DNA of 64,000 nt, taken from positions 59,518,077-59,582,076 of the forward strand of contig CM055092.1 of assembly GCA_029204225.1 (NCBI GenBank), given 5' to 3'. Source of the stretch: Diphasiastrum complanatum (Eukaryota; Streptophyta; Lycopodiopsida; Lycopodiales; Lycopodiaceae). Below are positions 12,494 through 48,400 of this stretch, in pieces (within the stretch, counting starts at the first letter, position 1; every line of letters starts with the position of its first letter). A program made the translations under genes and the position numbers. The notes beneath the pieces were generated by a model, which did no database searches, was not told the origin of the DNA, and was given only the letters and a program-made list of their open reading frames with translations.

Positions 12494-13537
12494 GCAATCA
12501 CGGGTAAAATGGTCAGGACTCTTAAAACGAAAGCAAAGATGCTTCTGCTGAAGGTCAGCGAACTCTGCAGACGTGTAACGTCGGACAAAAGCAGGTCGAG
12601 GAGTCGGAGACGAAGGGACAATGGAGAGAGCTGGAACAGAAGGGGCAGGTGTAGGGGTAGACGTAGCGGGAAAAGATGAAGCAGAAGGACGTGGTCGGGA
12701 GAAGCGGGAAGGAACGGTGTCAGACTACTTATGCTGTAAAGTACTGGCAAGAGACATCGCCTCAACAAGTGTGGGAGGACGGAAGGAAGAAACATCATAA
12801 CGTAAAGCACCACGAAGCCCAGCAATGAAACGAGAAATAAGCTCAGTGGGCTGTAGATCTGTGAAAAGATAAGAAAGCTCCATAAACTGATCTGTATAAG
12901 AAGCAAGATCACTGGTCTGAGTGAGACTACGGAATGTATCACATTGGCGGTCGAGCCACTGAGGATCAATCATAGCATGACGGAGGCCACAGTGAAAAGT
13001 ATGCCATACATGGAGCCCTTCCCGATTACGATCAGCTCTATAAACTCGCCACCACGTGGCGGCGCGTCCATCTAAATGTAAAGCAGCCAACTGGATCTTT
13101 TGAGGATCAGTCTAAGGGTAGATCTGAAAATATGTGTCAAGCTTAGCAAACCAATTCTCTAATAAGTTCCCGTCAGAGGAACCGGAATAGGTAGCAAGCT
13201 GTAGCCTATCACGAAAGTCTCGAACAAAGTGTGGCTCAGGAAGTGGGGGACGTGAAAAGAAACCAGGAGGTGGGTTAGGTGGAATGAACGGTCCACCACC
13301 AGACTGACTAGCAGAGGAAGATGGAAATCCAAATGGAGGGGGAGTCCCAAATGAAGGAAAAACAGGAGCTTTACCAAGACCATGAGGCTGTAAAGAATCA
13401 ATCTGTGACTGCATAGTAGCAAAGCTTGTCATAACGCTATCGAAGCGAAGAACGAGGCCAGAAAGGGTCTCATCCATGCGACGAAACTGATCGGATAAGG
13501 TTTCTTGAGTAGTCTCACTCGGGGTAGGTGAATGTGC
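12494..13537 (-). pseudogene. gypsy gag (capsid and nucleocapsid) region (decayed)
   Basis: The chosen start is the ATG for MAHSPTPSETTQ at 13537; an upstream ATG at 13594 gives a less typical leader. The capsid region includes ENWFAKLDTYF, then after TAG (about 13113) LAALHLDGRAATWW and DLASYTDQFMELS. A second TAG lies at about 12725. The nucleocapsid zinc knuckle at 12494-12535 reads [14 protein letters not shown]: the second Cys of CCHC is Phe, so zinc binding should fail. Confidence 0.9.
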
Positions 13538-15246: not shown

Positions 15247-16796
15247 GGCCAAAACATAGCGTCTGAGAGAGATAACTCGGTCTGACGGGAAGCCCTGAAG
15301 CATCCAGGTGAAGAAAGTGAATGCGGTAGAACTGACGCTTAACCCGTGATGGATCCAGGTGAGACCAAACAGTATGTATGTATGCTCTGTAGATCTGTTA
15401 GCAAATGAATGCATGAGTCCCATTTGGGAGGTCAGACATAGATAATGCCCAGCTATGTAGAAAGTCCGAAGCATACTGAAACCATGAAGACTTAGCCTGG
15501 CCCGAATCATCCGGCTAAGCATGTGAATCTGCAAACGCGAGATGTCACTCCATGTGTCTCTAGATAGGCCTCGGCACCATGTCTCTGCTGAATACCGTGC
15601 AATTGGAGAAAGAGTCGAAGAAAAAAGAGGCGACAACGTGTATCCGGGTCATGCACGTAATAAGTAGAGGAAAACCTCTCCGTCTAAACAAGAGTAGAGC
15701 GCCCCTTGCGGAGCCTAGCCAATGCAGCTTGTCTAAGAAAAAGCAATGGACCAGAGAAGAGAACACCCAGGTATGTATAAGACGCCACTATCTCTAGAAG
15801 CTGTCCATCAAAATAGAACATAGTGTCTCTCATATGCTGCCTATTGGTGTTAAACACCATAACCTTAGTCTTACCAATGTTCACCATCAGCCCCCATATC
15901 TGACAGAAAGTATACAAGGCATCCAAATGTCGCTGAAGTCCTGCAGCCGAACTAGATACTAGAACCACATCATCTGCATAAAGAAGGATAGGGATAACAA
16001 TATCTGCTAGAGGACAATCATCTCCACCTTCTTCGCGAATGATCTGCTCAAGGTCGTCAATGTATAGAGCAAATAGGTTGGGTGACAAAGGACACCCCGG
16101 CTTTACTCCGACCGTACTATGAATATATGAAGACCATCCATCTCAATCACGGAATCAGGCCAAAACTCTCTCATATAATGTGATGATAGCAGCAATGACC
16201 TCTTGTGAGAAACCAAGGGATGCCAAACGCTGCTTACTATGAGATCAGAGGCAGATACCACTGTCTCTATCGGGACACTCCACTCACGCTTGGTTCCTTC
16301 TTTGCCTATCCAGATTCGAGATGTGTTGATTTACTTTTGCGAGAGATGTTCTCTTTGAGATCTTCACTTCTATCGGATGATCAGGATGTTGGCCACAGCC
16401 AGCCACATATTACAATTTTCTTTCAGAAAAGAGTTAGGGAGTATACTTCGGATAGTGAGATTGACATTCCAGCTCATCGACCAAAGTTCCAGAGTCTTCC
16501 TCGACCTCCAGAGTTCGTCACCAAACCCTAAACCATGTGCCTCACACCAGATCACACAGTTTTTCTCTCCCAGTTAGTGAGTTTTATTCCTCCACGTAGC
16601 TGGCGGTTAAGCTATTGCTTTTGTAACCTCACCATAGCTGGAGGTTAAGCTTTGGTTTTATTTCCAGTTTATTTCTGTTTTTAGTTTTACCTGATAGAAA
16701 TAAGTCCGACATGGACAATGCTCCTTTCTGATGTACTTTTTCTTTGTCTTCTATGCCCAAGGGCACTCTATAGACATTCATATATTCTATTCTATT
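15247..16796 (+). mobile_element. LINE-b: L1-like copy with inverted 5' part (twin-priming type)
   Basis: From about 16240 down to 15247 the minus strand reads ORF2 from [12 protein letters not shown] through the RT palm ([13 protein letters not shown] near 15980), [13 protein letters not shown] and TYLGVLFSG to LRRYV. From about 16241 the plus strand continues the same ORF2 further downstream ([19 protein letters not shown]) to its end at 16531 and then the 3' UTR to 16796. About 0.4-0.5 kb between the two parts is missing at the junction. The plus part contains the PIP-box QPHITIFF (16400-16423) followed by QKRVRE. The RT part has TAG near 15685 where sister copies have CAG. The 3' UTR has the family stem-loops and ends in (TATTC)n(CT)n. 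Confidence 0.88.
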
Positions 16797-16802
16797 CTAT
16801 TC

Positions 16803-16874
<72 letters not shown>
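16790..16874. repeat. (TATTC)n(CT)n microsatellite between two LINEs
   Basis: Four TATTC-like units pass into about 34 CT units. It is the tail of LINE-b and abuts the start of LINE-c. Confidence 0.95.
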
Positions 16875-16875
<1 letters not shown>

Positions 16876-17391
16876 GCGATGGCTGCTCCTCCAACGATGG
16901 CTGCTGCCCTGCCCTAGTCCGCCCTCTTCAACACCATGGCCCCTCCTCCTCCTCGCGCCCCTGCTACTCGTAGGTCCTCAAGATCCCCTGCCACCTCCTC
17001 ACTCACCCCCCTCGCTGACCACTCACCTCATATCCTCACTGCTCCTCCCCCAACCCACCCCCCCTCACTGACCTCTCAGATCTCCCCCTCGCTGATCTCT
17101 CATGCCCTCCTATCGCTGCCACCCCCTAACCCACCCCCCTCGCTGACCCCTCCACCCACCCATCCTCCTCACCCCCTCTCGCTGCCACTCCACCCCCCCC
17201 TCTCGCTGCCCCCTCACCTAACCCCCTCGCTGATCCCTTGCCTCCTCTCACGGTCATTCCAGCCCCCCCCCCCCCCCCCTTCGCTCTCACTTCAGCTCAC
17301 CCCCTCGATGACCCCTCCCTCTCCTGCTATAACTCCCACCCCCCTCTCTGATGGCTCACCACCCCCCCCCCCCTTCGGTGCTGTCCACTGA
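16875..17391 (+). mobile_element. LINE-c, 5' part: proline-rich ORF1 start
   Basis: It begins agcgatggctgctcctcc right after the CT repeat. The open frame 16936-17391 (MAPPPPRAPATRRSSRSPAT) is a Pro/Ser-rich stretch with C runs (17264-17278), like the ORF1 N-termini at 24090-24600 and 39906-40590. It breaks off at 17391 where unrelated LTR-element leader sequence starts. The ORF2 end of probably the same copy resumes at 19090. Confidence 0.7.
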
Positions 17392-18587
17392 TATGGCAGT
17401 GCTACATGCCATGCAGGCAGCACGGCATAACCTGATTCTAAATCAATTCTAGGTCAATATGCAATTCTCCATGAGAAATTACTATATCCTAGCGAGAAAT
17501 TGTCTCTACACAATTCTCATCAATATGCCTATGTACAAACAACTAGTTTATGCATGCAAATAACTTAGTTCAAGGAATACTCTGTAGATCCACAGGATTT
17601 GAAAGTTTGTACAAAAGGTTTTATGATCCCACAAAGATTCACTACATAGCATATCTCTACAGATATCTCATGATCTGTACACATTTCTTTCTTAACCGAG
17701 AATCCTGTAACTTGGTTATCCTCTAAGAGAGAATATTTCTCAAAGTGTGCCATTTCACAACCAAAATCTCAACCGGAGATTAACTCAAAAGAATATATTG
17801 TTAGCATGAATTTCCATCCTTGCATCAACCCACGGATCTTAGTCCTTACTAAGACCAAGTTGATTGCTTCCAGCAAGGAACAGGTTTCAACAAACCCCCA
17901 TCTTGCAATAGAATTCCCAAGTTTTGACACAAATCAATCAGACTTATAATCAGTAACTCTTCTACTACAAGAGTTTCTTCTAATTTCCTTCTCTTACATC
18001 TTCAAACCAGATATCCACTATAATCCTTAAAGGATTTCTGTAATATCAAAATATCCTATCGTTTCTGATTTTTGAAAACAGGTCCGTCATCTCTCATATA
18101 ATAGATTCCTCCTGGAATCTATGATAGATGTTTCTCCTTGATAACTTTCTTTTCTTCCTACTTCTCCCCCCTTTTTAATAGGAAACGACACGAGTTTCCA
18201 AGGGGTGCATATCCATCTAGATTCACCCTAGGAGAAGTTTCAAAGAAAAGTTCCGAGAAAATCTTAGATTTACGAGGTTATTGCGGTCAACTAATCCAGT
18301 TAGTTTTAGATCTTCATTTTGGAATCGCCTGCGTCCCATACCACAGGTTCTTCCTCCATGAAGGCCCTCCACTTCCTGATCAAAGTGTTAGAAAAAATAA
18401 TTACAAGTATATGAAGTTCTCGGGAATTATTAATAAATTCCAACTTCATAAAACAATTTCCATTAATATTTTCTTTCGCCGCTTTTCATAATCTCTACGG
18501 TCACTGAAAGGATAGTAGGTTTCGTCCTAACATGCCTTGAGTGACAGATTTAGAAACGGGGAAGAATGAGTCGGCTTTTTCTTGATC
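17392..18587 (-). other. non-coding leader of an LTR retrotransposon fragment
   Basis: About 1.2 kb without a convincing frame between the LINE-c ORF1 part and a minus-strand LTR. It lies directly downstream (minus sense) of the primer site and LTR, so it is best read as the 5' leader of a truncated element. Confidence 0.5.
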
Positions 18588-18596
18588 TGATACCAA
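18588..18596 (-). promoter_or_regulatory. primer binding site next to LTR
   Basis: Plus strand tgataccaa; in minus sense TTGGTATCAGATC follows the LTR end CTTTACA. It is initiator tRNA-Met-like with divergence beyond the first ten bases. Confidence 0.7.
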
Positions 18597-19089
18597 TGTA
18601 AAGTTCTCAAACCAAGAATTCTATTCTAAGCGTGCCAATCACAAGCAACACAAGGGAAACGGATGGTGGACAAACCAACCCAACCAAACCTAGATCAAAC
18701 GGATCTAGCCCCCAAGCTATGGATCAATCACAAAGAGGAATGAGGCATCACACCAACACCATACGGCTACTAGTCTCACAATCAAGGATACACTAGTGAG
18801 AGCCCAATAGGTATACTTATACCCTCCAAGGCCCATGCACCACTAGTAGTGCACTGTGACACCTCACTGGACACCTCTGCAGCCTATCTGGGCCACGTCA
18901 TCCAGTTGCCCAATGACTCACTGATAGACCCATACAAATCCACCATCATGAGTTTCGGCCTACAACCATTAATTATGACCTTTACACATAAGGGCTCCAA
19001 TTCCCTTATAGTCATAATTAGCTTACGGGTTGTTGGTCTACTGATCTCTAGCATAGACACGCTATCCGAGACTAGTCATGGGCATGACA
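18597..19089 (-). repeat. 5' LTR of a truncated Ty3/gypsy element (TGTCATGCCC family)
   Basis: 493 bp. In minus sense it starts TGTCATGCCC and ends CTTTACA, canonical TG/CA ends. Sister copies are the solo LTR at 38368-38855 and the 3' LTR at 33704-34140. All three share an internal palindrome (here arms 18970-18979 and 19011-19020). Confidence 0.85.
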
Positions 19090-19690
19090 GTTATGGTCTT
19101 CAACACTTCTTGAGCCTTCATGCAACGCCAGGAGCTCACCCTAGATGGACAGGCCTTAGAGGTAGTTTCCTCTTATACCTATTTGGGGATTCTCTTTTCT
19201 GGTCCTACCTTCAGCATGCAACAGGCTGCCACCACCCGACTTGGGAAGGGGCAATCCTCTCTTGTTCAGCTTGAGCAGTTCTACTTCAGGCAGCTCATCC
19301 GAGATGCTCGCAGTAAGTGTAGGCTTTTTGATACTATTGTCACCCCCACAGCCTTATATGCAGCAGAGACATGGTGTCTCGGCCACCCTTCATCACACTG
19401 GGCCGGCATTTCACGATTGCAGACCACCATGTTAGCTCGTATGATTCGGGCGAAGCCCTCGGTTCCATGAGATCCTTCTTGCAGAGTTTGTCGTTCCACC
19501 CATTCAGATATATGTCGCGTTCCAGCTTATCGCATACATTAAGAGAATCCAGGCTCTGCTCGATGAGGATATGAGATATACACAGACAGCACTTGTTTCC
19601 TCACACTTTCTTCATGACCAGGGCTATCAACTATGGTGGTTCTCCCAGGCATCCCATTTCCTCCTTGAGTTTAAAGGTCCTTGTGATGGA
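19090..19690 (+). mobile_element. LINE-c, 3' part: ORF2 downstream of RT palm
   Basis: It picks up inside the family motif KVMVFNTS (vMVFNTS here, with TGA at about 19111), then continues with [28 protein letters not shown] and [13 protein letters not shown]. It degenerates after 19570 and has no 3' UTR, so the copy is cut at both sides. Confidence 0.8.
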
Positions 19691-20489
19691 GAAAGGTTTG
19701 AATGTGCTCACAAATTGCGGAGATACGATGATCCACAATCAGCAGCTACTCATTCATTGCCCCAACTTTACAGCTTCATCACATCAATAGCATTTTGCAG
19801 CTTCATCATTTTCTTTAGACCAACAGTGGTGAAATTTTCTATTTGAGGGCAGGTTATATGCCAAATATTTGCTAATTCATAGTTTTGGGAAATGACATGT
19901 AGTTGGATAGGTACATGTTTCCCCAACATGCAAAACACAGGGAAACGTTCTAGGAAACAGCAAGTGGGAGAAAAACTTTCCTTTATTATGAGCACCATAT
20001 AGCACTTTTTCATCTGGGAAACAGGCTCCCCTGTTGGAGAAACATGTTTTGACTCATGATTTGTGTTAAAACCTTGCATGGATGGAATTCATTAAACATG
20101 GATGGAGTTTCCCATTTCAAAATTGTTTTTTGTTTCTCGTTTCTTGTATCCATTGGGGGCTCTGTGTGAATCATTTCCCAAACTATAAAAGGACAACGGT
20201 TCTGCACCTTGATTTACCTCCATTTGGATGTAAGTCGTCCTAAGTTTTGTTAGGACCCCACATCTAGCATTGGCACAACATTCATAATTCAAAATGCATT
20301 TATCCAGTAACTAAAATAGTGCACACACTAGCTTCCGTAATCAGAATCAGTGACATCTTATAGTGGCCGCTGAGAAGCTTAGCTCTACTTCAATTAGTTT
20401 GAGTTCTAAGAATGTATTTCACTGATTCTCTTCTATCAAAAATCCCAAGCCTTATCAATTCCTTTTGAAGAGGCATACACGCAAAACAA

Positions 20490-20490
<1 letters not shown>
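19691..20490. other. intron-type DNA, no recognisable gene
   Basis: No motif or open frame of note. If DEG7 continues leftwards this is part of its next intron; no further DEG7 exon was recognised between here and base 1. Confidence 0.5.

Positions 20491-20577
<87 letters not shown>
20491..20577. repeat. (TG)n(AG)n compound microsatellite
   Basis: About 27 TG units followed by about 16 AG units, 50 bp from the splice donor of the DEG7 exon 20629-20799. Confidence 0.97.
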
Positions 20578-20579
<2 letters not shown>

Positions 20580-20628
20580 CGTATAACATGCAAACCACTT
20601 AAATATTGCAACAGAGAAGACCTCACAC

Positions 20629-20799
20629 CTGTATCCACTTCAATAACTTCCATATTCATTGCACGGTAACGAGGGCAATCTGCAGCACCAACGTTCAATG
20701 CTACAGACGGATTTGTTACAACAGACTTTCTTGAAGTTGCTTGCAAGCTCCGATTCAAGCCAACTAGATACACAGCATCCCCTCTACTCAAAGGTGGTT
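20629..20799 (-). CDS. DEG7: DEG7 exon 15, last visible: domain 2
   Basis: Two bases of Glu, then [44 protein letters not shown] and one base of the next codon. Donor gtgtga. The next expected segment (FGSSFSG-like) was not found in 1-20600. Confidence 0.94.
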
Positions 20800-22187
20800 C
20801 TGTTGCAACAGAAAACATTGTGAAGGACAGCAGACCAGAAAAGTAATATCAAAAAAACTACATACAGCTAGAAAAATTTTGAGCTGGCAGTGTAATTGCA
20901 CAGAAAACAAGGAAGAACAGCCATACTATAATCTCGATCTTTCTGGAAAAAATATGGTCTATAGAGTTGATGACTTATGAAATAATGAACAAAACCAAAT
21001 ATGAGCTTCTGAAAGGTCAAGTGTATGATCATACTTAGTGTATAGAACCTTTGAAAACTAGCATCTTAGTGAACTTGTATGAAAATTAGACAAATAAAGT
21101 ACTAAATTTACCAGAAAGGAGAGTGGCTGCACGAACTGCAGCAGCACCTGCTGACCCAAGTGCAGCAGGGTCATAAGCAACAAGGGCAAAATTGTGCACT
21201 GGATGTAAAAACACGACCTACACTAGGCCACATAAAAAACTTCATAAGACCATGGCTTTAGTTCTTTATGGTTCATGTTTCAAATCACCAGAAATTTGTA
21301 AAAACAAAAGGTATGAGGACTAGTTCAACCCAAAATAACACTAAGTTGGCAAGTCTATGTATTTTTTTCTACAACAAATAACAAGGCACACCTCTGCAGG
21401 TATTTCAATGGGATATGCAGCAAATGAAAGCATCACATCCGATACAGAAATAGCGACCGTGTTTCGATCCACAGCCACCAAACCAAGGCTCTGAGAGTGA
21501 TGCACAATAACTCCAGTGCCAAAGAAGTGTTGGGCATGAACACCATCAAGCATTGCTGAAGGCGGTATGTGAACCTGTGAGAGTTAGAATAACTGGTTCT
21601 ATGAGTCATTTCCACACATAGAATTGCCAAAAATGTCTTCGAATACAGTTCGATGATTTGAAAATCATAAAAAATTCCAAACTCAGTCATTCTATAACAA
21701 ATAATCTGGACAGTAGCTTTTCAGAAGGACTAATCAAAGAGAAAAATCACGAATGCCAGCAAAGGAGTTTCATATCTTCCGACTTTATAGAGGTCCTCAT
21801 GCTGAAAGCTACCTAGATATGATAAAATAACTATTGTAAAAGCTGTTGTTAGAACCTCAATGTAGCATTTGCCAAATCCCGTCAAACAGGCATACATCAG
21901 AGGGTTTATGCCAATGTTCTATACAAAAGTGATGATGGCTCCCTATGATACCCTTTTTGAAAATAATTTCCCAATGATGACAGGTATCTATCATGTGATT
22001 GATGGAGTATTTTTTGAGATTTAAACTTTGGAAGGAAACATTTGTTTTCAAAATTTTGCTGGCCTGAAAAGCCTGGTCAGCCGTTCCGTAAAGATGCAAA
22101 TATGGGCAAGGGATGCGAGTCCTTATACTGGCTCTAAAAGAAAGATCAATCAATCAATCAATCAATCAATCTCTATCTATCTCTCTC

Positions 22188-22235
<48 letters not shown>

Positions 22236-24216: not shown

Positions 24217-24248
<32 letters not shown>

Positions 24249-27200
24249 CACTGATGGGCCTCCTGTTGTCTCCTCTGTTGACTTGTCTCCTGCCCCCCTC
24301 GTTGTCCCCCTTGCTGGCTCCGCTCCTGATCTGCCTCGTAATGATTCTGCCCCCCTCGCTGACCACATGCTGGCTCCGCTCCAAATCCCCCCCCCCCCCT
24401 CGCTGATGTATCCCCTTTTGTCCCCTCCATCCCTCCTGCCCCCTTCGCTGTCCCCCCTATTGAGCATCCCTCCTCCTCTTCTTCTTCCCCATTCTCCTCT
24501 TCATCCTCATCCCATACACCTTCTTCTTCACGCTCTTCTTCTTCCTCATGCTCTTCTTCTTTCCCATCTGCTTTATCTTTTTCTATTCCTATCTCCCCTT
24601 CCTCTTCTTCATTTGTTGTTTTTTCTTCTTCCTTGCCTATCAATCCAATAACTCCTCTTATCTCCTACTCTCAAGAACCACACAGTCCCACAAAGGCAAT
24701 GGAGTCCTATTTTGCCTTTAGCCTGAGTGTGCTATTACAAGATATTCAGGGTTTGAAGACCGAATTACACATGGTTAAAACTGAGATGTCTGCTCTCAAA
24801 GAAGCCAAGCTGCATCAAGAAATGGATCTTCTGAGAAAAGAATTCGAATCTCAGCCTCTTCTTGCTACACCTGAACCATCACACAAACTTAAAGAATTGG
24901 AGGACAAAATTGAGAAGCAGAATGAGGAAGCCTTTTCGTGGGCAGCAATTATCAAAAAAGGTAACACACCAAGTGCCCCTATTTCTTCGGTTATTTCAGC
25001 TACTCTTTCAGAAGAGAGATCCAAGGAGCAAAAGCATACAACATTCGAGTAAGGGGCATCGCAAACACTCAAATGCTCTTGAAGAAGCAAAAAGTTTCCT
25101 TGAAAGTACACTTGGGCATCACAATAGAGATTTAGATTCAGCATGGAGAACAACCAGAGATAATGCTACCCTCATCATCAACACCTGCCATCCCCACAGT
25201 GGTGGCCATAGTGTTGTGATTACCTTATGGGATCACCATCAACCATCCCACTCATCCATGATTTTCATGTCTCTCCTACCACTTCTTTGATCATTCCTTC
25301 CTTTCCTTTAGTCTTGGTACTATTTCTTTGCCTCGATAGCTCACCTCCACCATTATCTCGTGCACCCAAATTGACCATTCACTCGCACCTACCTATGAGC
25401 ATTCGCTCACCCCACTGCTCCACATTTTCCCACATCATAAACCGCTTGAAGTGCAAGCTTCCTTCCTTACCACAGCACTCCATACGGCTGCCACTACTTC
25501 CTTCCCTTCTAGACCCCATCATAACAAAAAAAACAACAAACCTAGACCGGTGCGCCCACCTCGGTATGACAATGAGTGTCGTTCCCATCATCACCTTGTC
25601 ACACATGCTCGCATGCACACCCCTCATCTCTTGCAACTCACTCGTCGTCTCGTTACCCGCTTACTTCGGTGTAGAGAGAGTTTACAGAGACAGATTGATT
25701 GTCTTCATGATTTCTGTTCCAGAAGGGGCCTCGAGGTGAACATTGTGAAGACCAAGGTGATGGTCTTCAACACTTCCAGGAGCTTTATGTTGAGATAGGA
25801 GCTCCTTTTGACAATCGGCCCTTAGAGATTGTTCCATCCTACACTTACTTGGGCACACTTTTTACTGGTCCTATATTTAGTATGAGACAAGCAGCTGCTA
25901 GTAGGCTTGGGGAAGGCCATGCTTCCCTTGCCCAGATGGAGAGATTTTGTCTATTCGAGATGCCTCGAGTAAGTGTCGGCTTTTTGACACCATTGTTTCT
26001 CCTACAGCCCTATATGCATCAGCTGCATGGTGCACGAGCCTTACTTCATCTGACTGGACCAGTACCTCAGGATTACAGATCACTATGCTTTCACGCATGA
26101 TTCGGGCTAAGCCTTCAGTACCACATCAGATCATCCTTGCTGAGTTTGCGGTCCCGCCTATGTACCTTGATGCCTTACTCCAGCTCATCACATACATTCA
26201 GCGCGTCAGTGAGTTCCAGTCTTCTGAGCAGAGATATACTCAGGCTGCTCTCATTTCATCTCATCGTCAGTGTGGCTTGGTTCTCTCAGGCCTCCAGACT
26301 TCTTAGCACACCCGGTATCTCTATCACTGCACTTTCTTCAGGTACCCATGACTACATCCGACGATTCATTTATAGAGCTTACCTTGATCGAGCCTGGCAT
26401 GGTCAGTTGGGTGTCAAACCCGACTTTTATCTGCTTCTTTTTTTAAAGACAGATGTATCAGGATCCCCACTTCTACCACTGTACCTACGATTTGGATTAT
26501 CACATGGTCTCAGATTCATATTGGGTCAGCTCCGTGTCTCTTCACACCAGCTTGAGATTGAGATTGGTCGGTGTCAGGGTACCCCACGAGAGGACAGGAT
26601 CTGCCAACTATGTTCCCTAGGTGCTGTAGAGACTGAGGAGCATTTTATTTTCATTTGCCTAGCTTATTATGAGATTCGTGGGGGGGATACTATTGCTTGT
26701 TCAGGGATACACCAGTTACTTTGCGCTCACTTGTTACCTATGGGGATCCAGTTGCACTTATGATCCGAGAGATGTTTCTATTACAACGGGATCTCCAGCC
26801 CCGGCGTCAGATTGCTCCTGGCACACAGCTTCAGATTACCTCCTTTTTCTCCAGACGACATTCACGACCAGTCCCAAACTCAGATGATGATGACAAGGAT
26901 GAGGACACGACTTTCCACAAAGATCAGAGGCAGCGCACCTCCCAGCATTACCCAGCAGCCAGACCTCTTCGTCCTACAATGAGGAGACGTCCTTCCTACA
27001 TTCGACATCGGCAGCAGATCTCAGTTTCACTCCCAAGTGCAGCTTGTATTACATCTTTTTTCAGTAGTAGCAGTAGCAGTAGTAGCAATATCACCTCCAG
27101 GACATGATCTGCGGCTTGCGTCCATTATACATAGCCATTTCTTGCTTTATACCTTTTGGTTTAGTTAAGACTGGTAATTGTGTTTAGATTTATTATGTAT

Positions 27201-33200: not shown

Positions 33201-36200
33201 CTTTCCAAGTCGGCTATCGATCGTCATGTCTCAAGCTAAAGATAATTCTCAAGTAAGAGATTGGATATAGTTGTGAATCAGGGGGGATTCTAAAGTAATG
33301 CGTCCCGGCAAGCATTGCAAGTTGCCCACTTGCTACAAGGGACCATACATAATCCTCAAAAAAAAATTGGATCTTTGGTATACCAAATGGAACTCCCGGA
33401 AGGAAGTCAAGTGCATCCGGTCTTTCATGCGAGTCTTCTCAAGAAAAGCTTGCATGAGGAGGAGCACTTAAGTTCTGAAGATTGATTGCACCTATCGGAA
33501 GAATCGGGTAGGGCTATTTTCGAATCCGAAAGGATATTGGATTCTAGAACTAAGCAAATACATAATTGTATAGGTACTAAGTATTCGGTTCGATGGAAGG
33601 GTCATACGGATGATATGATCATTCTTGGGAACAAGGGAGAGCCTTAGAAAAAACTTACCTAGCTTTAAGATTTGAGGACAGAACTTGGATAAGGGGGGAA
33701 CAATGTCATGCCCACAAAGCTCTGACCTTGGATGTATATCTCGTAAGGGGGTCAGATGGACCTCAACGTGTAAGTTAATTATGACTCTGAGGGGTTGGGG
33801 CCCTCATGGCAAAGAGTCATAATTAATTGTCGGAAGCCTGAACCTCTGATGGTGGATTTATATGGAACTAGCAGTGACTCATTGGTAAGTGGCTGATGTG
33901 GCCCGGTTAGGTTGCCGACATGTCCCAGTGAGGTGTCTCAGTTTACTCTTAGTCTAGGGAGGAAGGGTATAAGCATACCCATAGGCCTCCCTTTGGAGAG
34001 AGCTTAGCTACGTGATGGTAGCTACATGCTGCCAGATTGACATCTCCTACCTTGAATTGTTGCTAGTGTTCCATGGCTTGGGGGCTAGATCCGTTTGATC
34101 TAGGTTTGGTTGGGTTGGTTTGATCCACCATCCGTTCCTTTTTTGTTCCCCTGGTATCATCAGTTTGATCCTTGGAAGAGGATTTTATAATCTCCCTCTG
34201 ATCTCATGGTATACAGAAAATCTGAAGATGAAGTGATCCTTAGTCTCAATCTCCTCCATAGTACAAAACTAGCAAAGTCTCTCTGCTTAAGGTATACCCT
34301 AAAAACGGCCTGTCTCTACCACAAGCTGTTGTGAAGAGACCTTGAGCTGGCCCAAAAGGATTCTATGACCATGCGAAAGACTAGAGTCCAAATAGCGAGG
34401 TAGAGTCGACAAACAAATTGTATCCAACTGCAAGAAATAAGTCCGACAAAAGTCAAGGTTGACCTCCAACTCACCATGCCAAGTACGCTAAACATAAGCT
34501 CGATAAAGGAAGTGGCGAATATACTGATGAGAACCAATAGGGAGATGCGAGATGGGAATGCCGAATGTATCAAGTAGGCAAGAACATTGAGAATACCTGG
34601 GAGCTGATAACCGTGAGATTGAAGATGCTTTGAAGATGTAAGTGCTAGCCGAGAGTATCGCATCAAGCTGAAGTGGTGTGACTGCAAACTCCACAAGGAT
34701 GATCTCGTGCAGAACTGAGGGCTTAGCTCGGATCATATACGATAACATGGTGACCTACAGGCAAGAAAAATTTGAAGAAATACCAATACACCAAGTCTCT
34801 GTAGCAGATAAGGTTGTGGGAGTCACAATAGTATCCAGACACTTACTCGAGGCATCCCGAATAAATCTCCTAAAGCATAACCTCTCGAGTTGGACAAGGG
34901 AAGAATATCCCACAGCGGCTGCCCACCTCATACAAAATATACGTCCGAAAAAAAAGAACCCCAAATAGGTGCAAGATGATACAACCTGCAATGGTTGGCC
35001 ATCGAATATAAGCACCTGACGCTGCATAAAAGCCCTGGAAGTGTTGAAGACAATAATCTTGGTCCTAGAAATGTCAACTCTCGAACCCCAGTTGGTGCAG
35101 AAAGTATAGAGACTATCCAACTAACTCTGAAGTCCCTATATGGTCAGTGAAATTAGAGACACATAATCTGCATATAATTAAATAGCAATCAAAATGTCCC
35201 CAAATTTGCAACCGGCACTACCACACTGATCAATTTGCTCGAAAATACCCAAGTCACTTCTGAAACAACCCAAGACCCTCTCATAAAAGGCCATGACAAC
35301 AAGCATTGTGTCTATGGAAAAAACCAAGTTGCAGATCCTCTAAATAAGCAAGGAGCATGGAACAAAATCAAAGGCATTCTGAAAGTACATGAGCCAGCAA
35401 AAGACCCTCTCACATCTATATTTGGCCTCCTCAATGATAGCCTGAGAGTAAGAATATGATCTGTTGTAGAATAATGAGCCCTGAGCCCAGCTTGACCCAT
35501 AGCAAAAAGTCTCCTAGATTCCGGATCAGAACTCACAACTGACTGTAGAATCGTGCCATATAGCTTTGCAATCACATCACCAATCATGATAGTACGGTAG
35601 TTATCAGGCATCATGGGATCACCACTTTTGTGGATGGGATGGATGATGTTAGTGCACCAAGATGGGGGGAAACCAGAAACAAAGGCTCAGTTAAGTAGTG
35701 TAGCCAGGATGGGAGAAAGTGTATCGGCAACATGAATCTATAGCTCGGATTCAAAATTCTTGATGTCACGAGTGAGATGGCATTTTAATCTCTTAATGGC
35801 CACTAGTACCATTTCAAAAGTAAAAAATGAAAACTCAGAGCGACGAGGAGAAATGGAGATGGGATTGTCAATGGGTATGTTATAAAGTAGTGTAGCCAGG
35901 ATGGGAGAAAGTGTATCGGCAACATGAATCTATAGCTCGGATTCAAAATTCTTGATGTCACGAGTGAGATGGCATTTTAATCTCTTAATGGCCACTAGTA
36001 CCATTTCAAAAGTAAAAAATGAAAACTCAGAGCGACGAGGAGAAATGGAGATGGGATTGTCAATGGGTACATGTCAAGAATGTGGTCACAGTGGGAGCGT
36101 ATGAAACGTCTCCAAAATTATAACCGAAATAACAAATTTAACTGCTAAGAACTGAAATGGGAACTGAAATAGATGTGATGATATATGATATATGAAACAT

Positions 36201-39200
36201 GTGGGAGCATATATACTGCTAAATGTCATGAATACGGTATGACACTATCATTCAATCCTGTCTCGCTGGTGCTATAAAAGGATGTAGTACGGGCTGCAGC
36301 ATGAGGGACCGCTGGTGGTCGCTAGCATCGTCTAGGAGGATGAAGTCTCCTGGTGATAGGTCGGGTAGCTCGTGCAGCAACATGAGTATGAGTGGGGCAC
36401 TGTCTCTGATCTCTGTGGGCATGTAAGTTGTCATCCTCCTCATCATCGTCTAGGTCTCATCCTCTTCTCCTGGAGAAGAAAGGGGTGATCTGAGACTGAG
36501 AAACATGACTCCGTTGGGCTGTCTGACACAGTTCCTATCGCAAAATAAACATGTCTCGTATCATGAGTGCAGCGCATCATGATACGAGACATAGGGATCA
36601 TAGGGCGACAGGCGTGTCACGGAATAGACAATGGTATCTCCCTTTGATCTCGTAATATACCGGGCACCTAAAGATAAAGTGCTCCTCCGACTCCACCTCA
36701 TCCAAGGAACATAACTGACAAATCCACTCCTCTCTCGGGGTACCTTGGAATCTCCCAGTCTCGATAGCTAACTGATGTGAGGATACGCGGAGCTGTCCCA
36801 ATGTAAATCTGAGACCGTGTGATAATCCCGAGTCCAAATAGTGTGGCAAAACTGGGAACCCTGCTATGTCGAGCTCAATGAAATGAGTCCAGTAATAGGC
36901 AGGTTCAACCCCAAGCTATCGCCTCCAAGTACGGTCGAGATATGCCCGATATAAGAAACGCCTGATATAGTGATGTGTGCCTGAGGGGAGCTCTGTAATG
37001 GAGATGCCAAATGACTCAACGAGGAAATGGGATTCCTGTGAGAACCACGACAGTCGGTAGCCCTGATCATGAAGGGAGTGTGAGGAGGCAAGTGATGTCT
37101 GCATATATCTCATGTCTGTACTTGGCAGATCCTGAACTCTCTAAATATATGCGATGAGCTAGAAAGCTGCATCTACCTGAATGGGTGGGACGGCAAACTC
37201 TGCAAGGAGAATCTCGTGTGGAACCGAGGGCTTCGCCCGAATCATACGAGCTAGCATGGTGGTCTGTATTCGTGAAATGCTTGCCCAGTGCGATGAGGGA
37301 AGACCGGTACACCATGTCTCAGCTGCATACAAGGCTGTGGGGGTGACAATAGTGTCGAAAAGTCTGCACTTACTGCGAGCATCTCGGATGGATTTCTTGA
37401 AGCAGTTTCTCACAGAATATCATTATGGCTATCAGCACCTTATATGAGAGGGTATTATTAGCACACTTCAGAGATGGTATCAGCTGGTCGTCTTTTATCC
37501 AGAGCACAATTGGGGTCAAGCAGGGATGCCCACTCCCTCCCACTCTTTTTGCATTGTACATTGATGATCTAGAGCGGATCATCAAGGAGAGTGGTGATGG
37601 ATGTCCACTTGCTGATGTTATTATTTCTATCCTATTGTATGCGGACGATGTGGCATTGTTGTCCTCTACAGCCTCTGGATTACAGTGACATCTTGATGCT
37701 CTCTATGGTTTTTGCTTAGTGTGGGGCTTGACGGTGAATATTGATAAGACCAAGGTAATGGTCTTTAACACTAACCAGCAGCATATGAAAGATGACACAT
37801 TTTATTATGATGGACAGCAGCTGGAGATTGTTACCTCATACACCTATCTAGGTGTATTATTCACCGGTCCCTTACTCACTTTTCGCTCTACTGCTCTATC
37901 TCGCCTGCGTAAGGGGCATGCTGCCTTGGTACCTATGGAGAGAGTGTGTACTACTTACCATATTCATTATCCTGCTTCTAGAGACCACCTTTTCTCTACA
38001 TCGGTCTCACCAGTGGCTATGCACTCGGTGGAGGTTTGCTGCCCAAGGATATCTCAGGGTACTTGGAGAGACATCACTTGCCTGCAGATCAACATGTTAG
38101 GGAGGATGATTCGTGTGAAGCCCATCAGTTCCTCATGAGATTCTTTTAGCAGAGTTCGCCTCACTTCCCATGGTGGTAGAGGCTTTGTTTCAAATTGTTA
38201 CCTTTCTACATCGACTGGAGACCATGGATACTCACAGATACGTGATGGCAGCGCTTACCTCTTCTCAGGCTATAGGTGGACAGCAGGCTAGATCTTCTTG
38301 GTACAGTGATGTGGTGGCTTTCTTTCAGTCATGGGGCTTCTCGATGCTGGATCTCCCACAGGGAACTTATAAAGTCCTAAACGCAGGATACTATCCTAAG
38401 CATGCCAATACAAGCAACAAACAAGGGAACGGATGGTGGACAAACCAACCCAACCAAACCTAGATCGAACGGATCTAGCCCCCAAGCTATGGATCAATCA
38501 CACTGAGGAGAGGGGAATCACTCTAGCAGCATGTAGCTACCAATCACACAATCAAGCATACACTAGTGAGAGCCCAATAGGCATATACTTATACCCTCCA
38601 AGCCCCATGCATCACTAGTAGTGCACTGTGACACCTCACTAGACACCTCTGCATGGGCCACGTCATCCAGTTCCCCAATGACTCACTAATAGACCCATAT
38701 AAATCCACCATCATGAGTTTAGGCCTACAACCATTAATTATGACCTTATACACATAAGGGCCCCAATTCCCTTATAGTCACAATTAACTTACGGGTTGTT
38801 GGTCTATTGATCCCTAGCGTAGACACGCTATCCGAGACCAGTCGTGGGCATGACAGAACTCATGCATTTATCAGACAACAGCTGTATCGTAGATATTGTC
38901 ACATAGTATGGGATCGTCCTGATCATGACAGGGTCAAGCTTACCTTTTATGGCGCACATGTCTTACGCAGAGACAGTTGGGACTTCCTATTAGACCTTTA
39001 GATCTATCTCTTCCTCTCTCTTTTGGGCTCCGATACAAGTTGGGACAGCTACAAGTCTCTTCGCATCAACTTGCTATCGAGACAGGCAGATATTCAGACA
39101 TTTCGAGAGAGCATCGGATATGTCAGGTATGCACATTGGGTGTAGTGGAGGATGAGTTCCATTTTATCTTCGCATGCCCTACATACTATGAGATATGTGG

Positions 39201-42200
39201 TCGATATCATTGTTTGTATCGGGACACCCCCATTACCCTCAGTACCTTTTTGGAGTATCAGGATCCCAGATGTGTCGGCCTTTTGAGAGATGCTTACGTT
39301 GAGAGCCTCTTTGATACCTTTGGAGGGTATTACTGATTCTGGCCAGCATCTTATCACTAGCTTCTTTCAGAAGCATAAGCGCGATGACCTATCAGATGAT
39401 GAGGGAATCATACCGGTGAGAGCGAAGGCCCGGCGTGCTCAGCCACCACCTCCTACCAGATCTACACGAGCCTCCAGACCTACCAAAGCTCCTCGACACC
39501 AGCCACAGATCATAGCTTCTATGGGTATCAGACGTTTTTTCCAAGATTGATATTTTATTCTTCCTTTTACTTTCCTCAGAGCAAGCGGTTAAGCTCTACC
39601 ACCTGTACCCTCATCAGAGCTGGAGTTTAAGCTCTTATATGCTTTTTATGATTTTATGTTCGATGTGTCTTCTGACTAGCTAGAGAGATTTCTATATTGT
39701 TCTTTCCACTTAGACTAGCGATTTTTATGTTGTCCGACATGGATAGTGCTCCTACGAGATATGTACTTATTTCTTCTGTCTTATGTACCCTTGGGCTCCC
39801 AACAGACATTAATATAATTTCTTCTTCTTCTTCTTCTTCTTCTTCTTCTCTTCTCTCTCTCTCTCGCTGCTGCTGGCTGCTGCTGCCTCACGATGGTGAT
39901 GGCTGTTGCTACTGCCTCGCGATGGTGATGGTTGTTGCTACTGCCCTGTCCTAGCTCGCCCTACCCTGGACTACCCCCATCGCTCTCCCCCCTCTCTTCT
40001 CTCGCCCTCCTCTCCCACCTCCATGGCTCGTAGAACCAGGGGGAGCCCTTGCTCCCCCGCTCCTCCCCGACCCCCCCCCCCCCCATCATCCTCTTCCCCA
40101 CCCCCATCCACACCTACTGTCGCTCCACCCCCGTCCGCTCCACCTACTGCTCCCCCCCCCCTCCTCCGCTCCACCTCCCTCCGCTCCATCTGTCCACTGT
40201 CCACCAACTGCCCTCCTCAGCTCCACCCGCTACCCTGCCCTCCCCTTCTTTCGCTCCACCTGTTGCCCACTCGCCCTCCTCTGATCTACCTAATGCCCTG
40301 CCCTACCCATCTGTTGCTCCGCCCTCCTCCTCCGCCCCACCTGCTGCCCTGTCCTGCCCACCTGTTGCCCCTTCTCTCCACTCCCCCTCCACATGCCATC
40401 CTGCTACTGAGCAACAAGTCCCTCCTGCTGCGCAACAGACACCTGCCCCCACTGCTACACAACAGCAATCCCACTCGAACCCTCCCTCATCCCTTGTCCC
40501 TTCGACTCCCATCTCTACCAACGCTGCTCCAGACACCCCCTTCTTGTCTCATGCCGACTACACCTCCTCCAAATCCTTCGAGAATTTCCTAGCCTACCAA
40601 CTGAAAGAATTGAAGACAGGTGTAGCACCGAAGTTGAAAAGGAAGAACCATAAAAATTATTGTTCAACTCAATTTTCTGGGAGTAATCCTACTCCAGCGT
40701 TAAATCGATAAAAAGTACAATACCAGGGACCCAAAATTCCCACTAACTGGGTACTTGCCTGAAGAAAAAATTACCATGAAAAGTAATATTTTATTGCCAA
40801 TTCTAAATCCATGGATCCCATCACATAGACATGACAGTTAGAATAATAAGATTATCTTTCAAACATTCTCCTGGTTAAGTCAGGAGAATAGGTAACTCCA
40901 TTCTCAGTTGTCAATTTAGATAGATTTCCAAAAATCATCTTACCAAATCGACCATTGCTTTGATTACATCAAAAAATTTGCAAGGACTTTATAACTCTGG
41001 GCTATGTAACCATAAAACCTTTATGAATAGCCATGCATCCCCCCAGATGCATTAAATCCTTTTGCAAAAACTATGAAACCATTGCAACCTCAAGGCTACC
41101 GACATGCACTACTCAGTGAACTCACTGAGACATGCAATCAACAGGGTCAGACCTCCCACATTCACATGCATCCAGTTCAAGCTTGGAGAAACAAAAGAGA
41201 AGTTAAATAAAACCTTACGCATGCAAATAAAGCCCCCCCCCCTCCCCTATGAAACCCTAATTAGGGAGCCACATGCCAAACCAGTCTCGCAGCCTCAATC
41301 CCAGCAACTTAGCCTTGCGGCTGTCACAGCTGCCATCGAGTCATTCAATACTCATGTACTTAATTTCAGAACGGGTGTTATAGCAGGATCACACCAAAAC
41401 GAGTCATTCAACACCTTCTCCAGCAGCGAGCATAAGATTGCCACAAACATTTACCTGCAGGGATGTTCTGGGTTTCAACCAGACTCAACAGAGGTTCTGA
41501 CAGTGCGATTAGAAACTACATACTAAGCTTCTTTGCGACCTCTATTCCTGCCCTCAGGATCAGCCAGTAGCAACTTGACTCAGCCAGCAAGAAAAAACGG
41601 ATTCTTCTGGTCTCAATCCGACTGCCCTCAACAACCAACATTCTGGATAGCTTGCTCTAGTACTATTTCAGATTTTTACTATAACACGAGCTACAGCTGG
41701 TCGCTGCTGATGAGGCCACGCATTCATTCCTGAGACAATAAGTTCAGGATTCCAGCAACTGGAGCGCACAAGGGTTTCACTTCTCAGAGGGTTGCTCTCT
41801 CTTCTTCCACAGGCTTGCTTGTATAAATGTGACTCTCTGCAGCTTCGCTCTTCAACAAACAGAGGTTTCAGAAACATGCATCAATGTCACATTGACAAGG
41901 AAAAAGAATTACTGTAGATTTTACAGTTCTAAATTCTTTCAACCATCAGCAAGCACCAATGTGACACTGATACCAATGTAAAGACCACTAGGGAAAACCC
42001 CTAAGATGAAGATAGGAAAACATGAGAGACTATGGAGCAAAACCACCCAACCAATCCTAGATCCCTCTTGGAGAATCCTCCTGGATCTAGACCCCAAGCC
42101 ATGCCAATGTGATAGCAAGAGGAGAAGAGCTCATCAAGTAACCTAGACCAAGTCATCGACGGAATAATCACTACCTCAAAATATAGAGAGTATGCATGAG

Positions 42201-45200
42201 CACATGCACTTCCCATGCAGGTCAACTATAAATAGGTTACAGCACTACATGCATACCTCCTGCCTATATCAGTCACACGTACATGCACTACTCCATATGT
42301 CTCAATTAGAGTGTCTGGGTCCTCTCAAGGTCATTCGTCACCAACAGGCCTCGATGTGGAATAAAATCTAGGCGTGACCAATAATCTCGAACACTGGAGG
42401 GCCAGTCTAGTTTTGACCCACGGCATTTCTGCTTATTCTTCTTCATTGAGATCTCTCCTTCGTGACTTCCCCTTTTCATCCTCAGCTGAGCACCAGGCCA
42501 CATTCCTTTCTCAATCTTTACTACATGTTGCTTCTTCTTCGTATTCCATAAGGCTTAACTCCACTCATAGACCTGTGCATAATAGATGGTATAATACAGA
42601 GTGCTCTGTTATGCAGAAGCAGGTGGTACATGCCATGTTTCATTCTCCCACATCACTTGCTCAAAAAGAAAAAATATACCGCACACTTGAGGAAAAAAAA
42701 GAAGGCATACTTGAAAAAAAAAAGGTCAAAAACTGATAGATGCTCTTGTTTCATCTTCTTCATCATATTTTTGGAAGACCTTCTCTAAGAAGTCTTTTAC
42801 GATTGCTCCTATTCCTATCAAGTCTTGAGTGGAGTATGCTACACGCCTCTATACTACTGATTCTTCCCCTATCACTCTCTCATCAAGACCTACTAATTTT
42901 ACAATGTTCACCCCTTCTTTGATTGAAGATGCTATCAAACGCGCCCAAAATCACAAAGCTGAAGATATTGACTCACTTAGTGCTGATTTTCTCAAACCTG
43001 TGGCTCATATAGTTTCCCCATACATCTCTCACATCTTCAATCAAGCTATTTTGTTTGGTTTCCCTACTGCCTGGTGCACTAATCTGCTACACCCTATACT
43101 TAAAGCAGGTGATCTAATGAATACGGAAAAATTAACGTACTATTATGATTAGTCATATCATGGCTAAGCTTTTTGGCTCGATCCTGCAGTCTATTGTTGG
43201 CTCAAAAGCAGAAGCGGATGTATTACATGCTCTTGGACAGGTGGGTTTCGGGACTGGTTATTCTACTACGGATCAGATTTTTATTTTGTATCATTGAGGA
43301 GGCTAAGCATCAAAAGCAACGAATTTATTGTTGCTTTGTGGATATCCGCAAAGATTTTGACTCTGCACCCAGACATCTTCTGCTTCAGCGCCTGGTCTCA
43401 CTTGGCTTTTCACAGGAGGTTATTGCTTCTATTACCACCTTATATGAGAGGGTTCTTGCTAGACTCAGAGATGGTACAAGATGGTCACCTCATATTCACA
43501 GTACAGTTGGTGTGAAGCAGGGTTGCCCCCTTTCTCCTACTCTTTTTTCGCTCTACATTGATGATCTCGAGCAGATTATCAAAGAGGAGGGTGGTGATGG
43601 CTGTCCTCTTGCAGATATTGTCACACCTATTCTCCTATATGCCGATGATATTGTCTTGTTATCTATCTCAGCCAGAGGGCTTCAGAGACACCTTGACGTC
43701 TTACATGGTTTCTGTCAAAAATGGGGTTTGACGGTAAATATCTCTAAGACTAAGATCATGGTGTTCAACACCAATAGGCAGCATATGCAGGACGATACTT
43801 TTTATTATGATGGACAGCAGTTGGAGATAGTTGCCTCTTACACTTACCTCGGAGTTCTCTTTTCTGGTCTTTTGCTTACTTTTCGACCGGCATCCACAGC
43901 TCGCCTGCGTAAGGGACACACTGCCCTTGTGTAGATGGAGAGACTTTGTACTGCCCTTTATGTTCATGACCCCGCTACACGTTGTTTGCTCTTTTCTATT
44001 ATTGTCTGTCCAGTGGCTATGTATTCAATGGAGGCTTGGTGTCCTGGGCTCTCTACGGGTACATGGAGAGACATCACTTGGTTACAGATTCTCATGCTTG
44101 GCCGGATGATCCATGCGAAGGCCTCGGTTCCTCATGAGATTATACTAGCAGAGTTTGCATCTCCACCTATGGTTGTTGAGGCTATGTTCCGGATTGTCAT
44201 GTTCTTACATAGAGGCTAGTCGATATGGACACTTCCAGATATCTGGTTGCTGCTTATACTTCATCTCAGTCTATTGCTAGTCAGCGGGCTAAGTCATCAT
44301 GGTTTGGGGATCTCTCTGAGTTTCTTGGCAAATGGGAGATATCTATATCGGCTCTCCCTAGTGGGACTCATACTTATATTCGGATCGCAGTTATATCCAG
44401 ACGGTATGGTCGCAGCTGGATCCAGAGAGAGCCAAGATGCATTTTTACGGCACTCATCTCCTACAGTTAGATGATATGGGGCTACCTATCCTACCATTGT
44501 ATCTCTCACAGACATTATCATATGGTCTTCGATACCATATTGGGCAGCTTCGTGTCTCCTCACATCAGCTCACTATCGAGACTGGTCGTTATACTGATAC
44601 ACCCAGACCACAGCGGATTTGCCAGTTATGCTCGATGCAGGAGGTAGAGGATAGGATGAGTCACAATTCATTTTCAGGTGCCCTATTTATTATGAGATCT
44701 GAGGCCGTTATCATTGTCTCTACAGAGACACTCCTCTCTCCCTTGGCTCTTTCTTGGCATATGCAAAATCTAGATGTGTCGGACTCCTATTTGAGAGAGA
44801 TGTTTACGTTACGAGCATCTCTTCTACCTTCCGAGGCAGATGATGTTTATAGTCAGACTCTCATCACACATTTCTTAAAGAAGAGGGATAGAGAGGAGGT
44901 TTCAAAGGATGAGCTTGGTATGCCGACACAACAAAAGGCTGTGAAGACTCAGCAACCACCTTCCAGACCGAGACGTGCAGTCCGTTCATCACAGTCAGCC
45001 AGAGCCTCACGACGGCCTTACCGAGTCGTTCGTCAGCCTCCAACACGCACTTCACAGCCTATCACTCGCTTCTTCAGATCAACCACTCAGTGACTCAGTT
45101 TTTCTAGTGTTTCTTTAGATGAGATCTTTAGATGTTTGCCTCAGCAGAGCGGGTGGTTAAGCTCTTGCCTTTGTACCTTAGCAAAGCGGTTGGTTAAGCT

Positions 45201-45386
45201 CTTGCATCTCCTTCTTGCATGATGTGAGATTGTTGTTTTATTCGTACTTAGTTGACTTTCGATAGAGAGATAGTTTTTAGAAATAAGTCCTCATATGGAC
45301 ATTGCTCCTACTTTGTATGTATTGTATTTTGTCTTTTGTGCCCACGGGCACTTGATAGACATTAATAAACTCTTTCTTTCTTTCTT

Positions 45387-45435
<49 letters not shown>

Positions 45436-48400
45436 TGCCCCCCCAGCCGCACCCTCCCCCAGCCCTCCACCAGCTGAAACCTGCCCCAGCTGCGCCTCCA
45501 CCAGCTGAACCCTCCCCCAGCTGCTGCCTCCTGTATCCCCCTTCTTCAGGTTCTGCCTGCCTGCTGCGCCCTCCCTCAGGTGAAAATTCCCTCAGCTGCC
45601 GCCGTCCCCAGACATGCCTGTCCTGTTTACACCTCCCCCAGCCACGCCTGCCCTGGTTCAAGCCTCCACCAGTCCCGCCTGCCTCAATTGCTGCATGTCC
45701 AGCGCTACCTACCCTGGTTGCTATCTGTCTTAGTTATTGCCTTCCTCTGTTTTCGGCTCCCCTGGTTGCTTGCTACCTATCCAATGCTGCCTCAATTGCT
45801 GCCTTCTCCAGAAAAAGCTCACCTCACTTGCTGCCTTCCCTGATCTGTCTATCTAGCTGTACCCTGCCTTAGCTATTGCCTTCTACCATATATCTGCCTA
45901 ATTTTTTTGTCATCATGGTTTCTTCCAATGCATCATACTCTCACGACGACATTCAAACTCAGCTTGATGACCATCTCATGTGTCTTTGTGAGAAATAGGA
46001 CATCTTCGTTATCTATGAAGTCTATGAAATAACATGTCTGTTACAATGTTTTAGAGACAAAACGTAATGAAGATGGATGGGTCTTTGGGTTGCTCTCACA
46101 CCTCAACTTTATAAACAACTCAAATATGCTTGTATCCACTCGCTCTCGACTATCCATGATATAAATTGCACTTAGAAAAAAACCCTTTGTTGTAAGAAGA
46201 CAACCTACGAGATTAACTAAGGGAGAAGGCTTATCAACTTTCCCTTTAGTTCTTCCTCAGGGGCCTTTGAGAGTGAATTCATTCCTCCTGCACCACCTCC
46301 CACATTAACTGACTTACATAGTTGGATAGAATACACCAAATCTCTTACCATCCCTACTACTTCTCCCATCATCATCTCACCCTCGCCTTCATCTTTCAAA
46401 CTTTTCACCCCCTGCATGATCATCAAACCGATTAAGAACCTCAATACTCATTGTGCCCTGCACGATCACCGAACACATTAAGAACCTCAATACTCATCGT
46501 GCATGAGATATTCAAGATCTAGAAGCAAAGCTTCTTATGCGTGCAAACAACGCAATATCCCCCATCCTAGCTTACCTCTTTAATTATGCAATCACTCAGG
46601 GCTTCCCACTTCCTAGTGCACTAAGGTCATATATCCCATTCACAAGGGGGGTGATCCCATGAAACCAAAAACTACGGCACTATCATGATGGGCCACATCA
46701 TGGCCAAAGTATATGGCTTTGTCTTACAGACAACAGTTAGCAACGAAGCTGAGATCAAACGTTTACATGCTTTGGGGCAGGCAGGTAGCTCATTACTCCA
46801 CTTTTGATCATATGTTCACATTAAGATTCATTATTGAGGCTAAATCTAGACAAGAAGGTGCATATTTGTGGATTTTTGAAAGGCCTTTGATTCCCTTTGG
46901 AAACACTTATCAAGACATTATAGCACCTTAGTTTTCAGTCAGCTACAATATTGGCAATTATGGCTCTATATGAGAGTGACAGGCTATTCCCAATCAAATG
47001 AGGGTATCACACCACCAGTTGATAGTACCATTGGAGTGAAGCAGGGGTGCTCACAATCCCCTATCTTGTTTGGACTTTACATTGATGTTATGGAGAGGAT
47101 AATTGTGCGGGATGGAGGTGAGGGATGCACTTTATGTGACTTGCTGATTTCTATTCTGCTTCAGGCCAATCATGTGGTACTCATGTTAAGGTCCAAAGAG
47201 GGATTAAAGAGACACCTGGATGTATTATGTTCTTTTTGTTCATGTTCGGGATCGACTGTGAACATTGAGAAGACCAAATCTATGGTCTTCAATACCTCTC
47301 GTGCATTCATGCGGACACGAGCTTTTATGAGATGGTCACCCCTTGGAGGTAGTCTCTTCATATATACCTTGGTGTCCTTTTAGCTAATTCAGTTTCCAGT
47401 ATGAGACAGGCAGCCCTTACCAGTTTATAGAAGGGACATGCAACTTTATTTCAAATTGAGAGGTTTTGTTTCAAAGGTGCATACGTGATGCTCCGAGTAA
47501 GTGTCACCTTTTTAATACCATGGTCACTCCGACAGCCATGTATGCAATTGACACTTGGTGTACGAGCCTCACTTCCTCAAAGTGGACCAATATATCCCGT
47601 CTATAGATCACTATGCTTTCACGGATGATCCAAGCGAAACGCTCGATCCCACATCTTTAGATGTCCAGCATATTACAAGATCAGGAGGAGATACTATTGC
47701 TTATACCAAGATACACCCATGACACTTCACTCTCTATTTATATATGCAGACCCATGCTACGTAGCCTTGATGATACGAGAGATGATGATTTTGAGACGAG
47801 ATCTATTAGAGAGCCAGACTTTTACAGACCACCATATGAGTATCATAGAGTTCTTTACAAGACACAGGCAGAGATTTATAGAGGATACAGAGGACAGATC
47901 GGAGCATGAGATAGATTTTATAATGAGAGACAGACGTTGCGTCAGACAATGTCTGTCTCTGATTATAGGCATTAGATCAAGCGCAGCAACAACATTAGAG
48001 ACAGCATAGACCTCATGCTCAGCCTCGTTATAGGCATATAGCTCGACAGAAGAGATCCAGAGATGTGGATATCACCATCACATCCATTTTCAGGAGGGTC
48101 GATAGATGGTGACAGATAGAGATATATCCAGTTACTATACTCCAGTATGCTCTATTTGGAGAGCTCATTTTGATGTTGCCTTATTTAATTATTTTATGGT
48201 AGATTAGTTATATTTTCTTATTGTTATTTATGGAGACGACTATTACACTCCTACAGTTATGACACACTTGAATGTACTGAGTCTTTTGTACCTACAGTTA
48301 CCAGAGAGAGAGAGAGAGACCTGTTGATATGATAGAGGATGAACCACGCCGCCACTAACTTCCAGAAAGAAGTTCGGTGTAATTGAATGTAGGTCTTGAA

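Follow-up and report, generated by a model that had tools for sequence, protein, structure and literature searches.

Introduction

Proliferating cell nuclear antigen (PCNA)-interacting peptide (PIP) boxes are already known from proteins of transposition, among them those of pogo, Tigger, Lemi1 and human L1 (PMC5371812). In human LINE-1 (L1), a long interspersed nuclear element (LINE), retrotransposition is reported to require contact with PCNA (PMC10830420), and the PIP box of its open reading frame 2 protein (ORF2p), at residues 404–419, lies in a helix between the endonuclease (EN) and the reverse transcriptase (RT). Here we analyze a window of 64,000 nucleotides from the clubmoss Diphasiastrum complanatum (contig CM055092.1, positions 59,518,077 to 59,582,076, forward strand; all positions below are those of the window), which contains copies of a LINE whose ORF2 carries a PIP-box-type motif in a C-terminal tail instead. 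An earlier note on this window had set the motif beside the EN-RT PIP box of human L1, a comparison which needs correcting, as PMC7617806 (2025) places PCNA on the ORF2p wrist (W1011, I1014) and not on the EN-RT PIP box; the use of PCNA by LINEs is disputed even in human L1, between the EN-RT helix (PMC10830420) and the wrist (PMC7617806). Among the results listed by searches of open-licence literature, none described a plant LINE with a C-terminal PIP box.

R2 proteins resemble those of the present family in their RT and C-terminal fold, whereas the R2 endonuclease is of a type other than the apurinic/apyrimidinic endonuclease (APE) type and that of the clubmoss and fern family is APE-type (PF03372). 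R2 is also described in PMC10830420 as having no PIP box. The transposases of pogo, Tigger and Lemi1, and putatively that of maize Ac, likewise bear a PIP box (PMC5371812), but they belong to DNA transposons, and the same source calls the role of their PIP motifs unclear. The peptide of p21 (CDKN1A), QTSMTDFF/Y, is closely similar to the fern motif QTSITDFF, although p21 has strong basic flanks (PMC6881253) and the flanks in the clubmoss and fern LINEs are weak. Plant RTE LINEs are described as having tandem repeats rather than poly(A) at their 3' ends (PMC10741241), a trait shared by window copies A to C.

Results and Discussion

The family is an APE-type LINE of lycophytes and ferns. Its ORF2 protein comprises an endonuclease, an RT and a CysHis C-terminal domain, and we consider it very probable that a disordered tail behind these, headed by a PIP box of the form Qxx[I/L]T[D/x]FF, docks on the host PCNA. 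In the window, a tblastn search with the D. complanatum protein P0001 (P numbers denote database proteins) detected one short fragment and eight copies that retain the CysHis/YYEIRGRY segment of ORF2 whole or in part. Two of the eight, located near 34.2 kb and 59.9 kb, are decayed or interrupted upstream of the motif site, and all six copies reading beyond the CysHis domain, named A to F, possess the motif or a one-residue variant of it. These sites (PIP1) are QTLITHFL in copy A (44854–44877, plus strand), QHLITSFF in copy B (39344–39367, plus), QPHITIFF in copy C (16400–16423, plus), QLQITSFF in copy D (26826–26849, plus), QSQITPFF in copy E (36475–36498, minus), and HMSIIEFF in copy F (47833–47856, plus). 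The earlier note had reported these six peptides after the CysHis segment, and each translates exactly so at its position and strand, with all six in register. Also as reported there, four of them (B, C, D, and E) fit the strict consensus Qxx[ILM]xx[FY][FY], while copy A ends in FL and copy F starts with His. The reading frame shifts within or after the YYEIRGRY block in copies A, B, and D, a feature on which the earlier note is silent.

The loose pattern Q..[ILMV]..[FYW][FYWL] matches 26 times in the six frames of the window, with five of these matches being PIP1 sites. As the bare pattern is not rare, it proves nothing by itself, and the case has to be carried by place and conservation. Together with the relatedness of the window copies, this frequency is what could speak for an accidental string that was spread by shared descent in a recently expanded family. 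Homologues were therefore of importance. A protein search with the C-terminus of copy A matched four proteins, P0001 from D. complanatum, P0002 and P0003 from Ceratopteris, and P0004 from Adiantum. While P0001 (86% identical, with 29% of the query covered) ends upstream of the motif site, the corresponding position in the fern proteins P0002, P0003, and P0004 is occupied by QTSITDFF, QTYITDFF, and QTTITQFF. A profile search yielded 83 proteins and a third search, with P0012 padded with X, yielded 33, two of which were known already and eleven of which are ORF2 proteins of the length range treated below. The resulting 120 sequences (114 database proteins and the six window copies) showed a match to the C-terminal domain in 113 cases, and 70 of them (64 database proteins and six window copies) reach the motif region, that is, they extend at least 25 residues past this domain. 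A strict motif at most 40 residues from the domain end was present in 62 of the 70, and in 45 of 51 after removal of sequences at 80% identity or more. In an earlier subset the strict motif occurred in 43 of 50 sequences, compared to a mean of 0.138 and a maximum of 2 in 1000 shuffles of the tails.

Column conservation was scored in a MAFFT alignment for which the motif did not serve as an anchor. Gln was conserved at 92%, Ile or Leu (pooled) at 98%, Thr at position 5 at 90%, and the two Phe at 94% and 92%, whereas entropies were 2.6–2.8 bits at the three free motif positions and 2.7–3.7 bits in the adjoining flanks. Selection on a C-terminal PIP-box-type motif, as suggested in the earlier note, is supported by this difference: when motif and neighboring residues are compared, here in homologues instead of the host genome, conservation is much higher in the motif columns. 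The earlier note had not singled out the conserved Thr at position 5. In pairwise comparisons of copies A to E, the degenerate copy F being left out, all 26 differences in the five motif codons fell on the third codon position and none on the first or second, whereas flanking codons vary at all three positions (Fisher p 1.5e-12, to be taken as a guide only because related pairs are counted as independent). Among copies B to E motif codon changes are exclusively synonymous, and copy A has Leu at position 8. Codon change at third positions only, the shuffled tails, and the conservation from lycophytes to ferns contradict a chance origin, which we find hardly credible.

Long proteins permit the motif to be placed within an entire ORF2. 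Eleven ORF2 proteins of 1075–1271 residues were examined (P0103, with 1005 residues, and the composite P0112 are outside this set), and precomputed annotation shows both endonuclease and RT in nine of them, and RT only in P0085 and P0096. In all four proteins scanned (P0084, P0089, P0091, and P0105), Exo_endo_phos (PF03372) and RVT_1 occur in a single ORF2; in the window the two are not found in one piece, the copies being broken. Ten long ORF2s reach the motif region, P0099 stopping earlier. On the question whether young copies lack the motif, for which these proteins serve as a proxy, nine of the ten carry it in strict form and the tenth, P0091, has His for Gln (HHLITDFF). No strict motif was found outside the C-terminal site, including the stretch between EN and RT, in the 13,243 residues of the eleven proteins. 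In overall architecture the family resembles human LINE-1 ORF2p, which is the best PDB match of the full P0100 model (Foldseek E 1.8e-31, TM 0.49). In the predictions the motif opens a disordered tail of low pLDDT behind the folded C-terminal domain. As the PIP helix between EN and RT of human L1 packs against palm and fingers (PMC10830420), the present motif might similarly pack on ORF2 itself, or else dock another partner such as the 9-1-1 clamp. However, it is the PIP consensus positions that are conserved, and in the structure models the stretch makes no confident contacts, so that such a role appears quite improbable to us.

PIP1 would most likely bind PCNA. The residues TD at positions 5–6, upstream of the aromatics, are present in 35 of 61 database motif instances, and in known peptides TD is reported to strengthen PCNA binding (PMC6881253). 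The same TD would also suit a PIP degron, through which CRL4-Cdt2 would degrade ORF2 during S phase on loaded PCNA and make the element self-limiting, but TD together with the required basic (K/R) residue at +4 occurs in only five of the 61 instances, and we regard a degron as highly improbable. For docking on PCNA, every step beyond the motif itself is one that we infer. The tail peptide would sit in the pocket of the host PCNA ring in the fashion of the p21 peptide, and ORF2 would keep PCNA at the target during target-primed reverse transcription. PCNA might then recruit host RNase H2, flap nuclease, polymerase, and ligase, and the recruited enzymes would clear the template RNA and complete the second strand. 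No RNase H domain was detected by Pfam in the four long ORF2s scanned, which makes provision of host RNase H2 via PCNA a plausible purpose of the tail; in human L1, RNase H2 is described as brought by PCNA (PMC10830420). Alternatively, the PCNA-bound motif might guide ORF2 to S-phase replication forks and thus serve target choice rather than completion of the insertion. Several bacterial transposons are reported to be directed by clamp contacts to DNA that is being replicated (PMC5371812), but the PCNA contact of human L1 needs EN and RT activity, suggesting recruitment after nicking (PMC10830420), and steering to forks seems unlikely to us.

Several observations weigh against the reading as a PCNA-docking tail. 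Constraint on the tail extends beyond PIP1, as further columns far downstream are conserved as well (for example G 83%, R 83%, and P 86%). Eight of the 70 sequences reaching the region lack the strict motif. Besides window copies A (FL) and F (His), these are P0063, P0066, and P0075, which form one sub-lineage in which HV[TP]x[IV]IF replaces the motif, their relative P0091 with His at position 1, P0064 with Thr at position 1, and P0005, whose tail seems frame-shifted relative to P0003. The basic tail that the earlier note had described after the motif is weak family-wide: net flank charge is positive in 30 of 46 sequences, zero in nine, and negative in seven, and window copies A, B, and C are among these 16. 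Flank charge is tied to PCNA affinity in PMC6881253. In addition, the PDB chains matched by the copy B peptide were all unrelated, all window copies are broken, and the profile search and the search with P0012 each scored only the approximately 8000 candidates with most shared words.

A second, degenerate PIP-like motif (PIP2) near the end of ORF2 had been overlooked in copies A to E by the earlier note. In copy A it reads SQPITRFF (45052–45075, plus), five codons upstream of the stop and in the frame of PIP1, in copy B SMGIRRFF (39518–39541, plus), two codons upstream of the stop and also in the PIP1 frame, and in copy C SHQITQFF (16542–16565, plus), three codons upstream of the stop and in a frame that differs from that of PIP1. 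Copy D has AACITSFF (27039–27062, plus) and copy E a degenerate AARTTSFY (36274–36297, minus), with stops between PIP1 and PIP2; copy F has no PIP2-like motif. Counterparts are TARITSFY in P0006 and QHTLHAFL in P0008. As Gln is seldom present at position 1 and the codons are under less constraint than those of PIP1, PIP2 in the lycophyte copies is graded only as a probable weaker second site, which could touch another subunit of the PCNA trimer.

The earlier note had called the family plant L1-like, a designation which is unsupported. In pairwise comparison, the RT of the family is only 22–24% identical to the plant-L1-type RT of P0112, the match extending over the RT alone, while identity to P0111 is about 29% over RT and CysHis C-terminus; LINEs of the P0111 type, however, stop directly after the C-terminal helix without a PIP tail. 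The zf-RVT domain (PF13966) gave no match at E 0.1 in the four long ORF2s scanned; P0006 reached 16.3 bits against a cut-off of 27.5, and even the plant-L1-type P0112 reached only 27.1. Copies A to C have microsatellites at their 3' ends and no poly(A) tail. In a tree of the C-terminal domain without the tail, window copies fall in two lycophyte groups, and a supported branch (99/94) comprises 42 sequences whose named members are all ferns. The motif occurs in every larger group, and six changes of motif label are needed on the tree as compared to 6.7 with shuffled labels, indicating that a few motif losses are scattered over it. If inheritance was vertical, the motif would predate the split of lycophytes and ferns, and horizontal transfer is the alternative. 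This split occurred more than 400 million years ago.

We suggest tentatively, with doubt slightly outweighing belief, that a LINE lineage other than L1 independently gained a PCNA tail of p21 grade behind its C-terminal domain and has retained it in lycophytes and ferns alike, and that a second site was added in lycophytes, which would let ORF2 hold two subunits of one PCNA ring. If this is true, LINEs have solved PCNA recruitment at least two times by unrelated means. A canonical, conserved and probably exposed PIP tail in another LINE lineage makes the PCNA question directly testable, for a short tail peptide is measurable against PCNA and can be altered without disturbing the enzyme fold. 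Should the tail bind, clamp recruitment would appear to be generally required for target-primed reverse transcription and to have been attained by convergence, and a PIP-type tail would offer elements a simple route to the host replication and repair machinery.

Additional Features of the Window

Other parts of the window copies were also located. The CysHis C-terminal domain of ORF2 lies at 44461–44786 in copy A (plus, two frames), 38929–39279 in copy B (plus), 26443–26747 in copy D (plus, two frames), and 36601–36906 in copy E (minus), and its end is found at 16235–16330 in copy C (YYEIRGRY block, plus) and at 47653–47751 in copy F (YYKIRRRY block, plus). Part of the RT of copy A (PF00078, E 9.7e-25) is encoded at 43152–43931 (plus). 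Microsatellite 3' tails on the plus strand occupy 45370–45432 in copy A, 39819–39854 in copy B, (TTC)n, and 16783–16874 in copy C, (TATTC)n(TC)n. The 3' untranslated regions of these copies (45080–45380, 39540–39820, and 16560–16790) have a repeated GGTTAAGCTC-like block in common and, by eye, a short hairpin-like GCCCacGGGC stretch upstream of the microsatellite; this GCCCacGGGC/GGTTAAGCTC-like region is possibly a recognition site for the RT. In copy C a minus-strand RT fragment (15487–16235) adjoins the plus-strand C-terminus, an arrangement resembling the 5' inversions that twin priming produces in target-primed reverse transcription.

Among the homologues, the predicted protein P0053 from Ceratopteris carries a full QQTITQFF motif at residue 111 and another at residue 264. 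In P0043, a predicted protein from Adiantum nelumboides (L7F22_002094), a DNA ligase domain (PF01068, E 2.6e-53) directly adjoins the LINE C-terminal domain with its PIP box, QTHLTDYF, which is either a gene-model artefact or the capture of a LINE motif by a ligase.

Elsewhere in the window, a repeated sequence reaching about 490 bases in length is present at 18599–19090, 33748–34147, and 38370–38856 with 74–89% identity between its copies, and sits inside copy B and beside the 34 kb copy. Remains of a long terminal repeat retrotransposon at 10266–12724 (minus) retain two open frames with aspartic protease, RT, and an integrase zinc-binding domain. A DUF659 domain (E 4.5e-40), which we take to be typical of hAT-type transposase genes, is encoded at 2091–2855 (minus).
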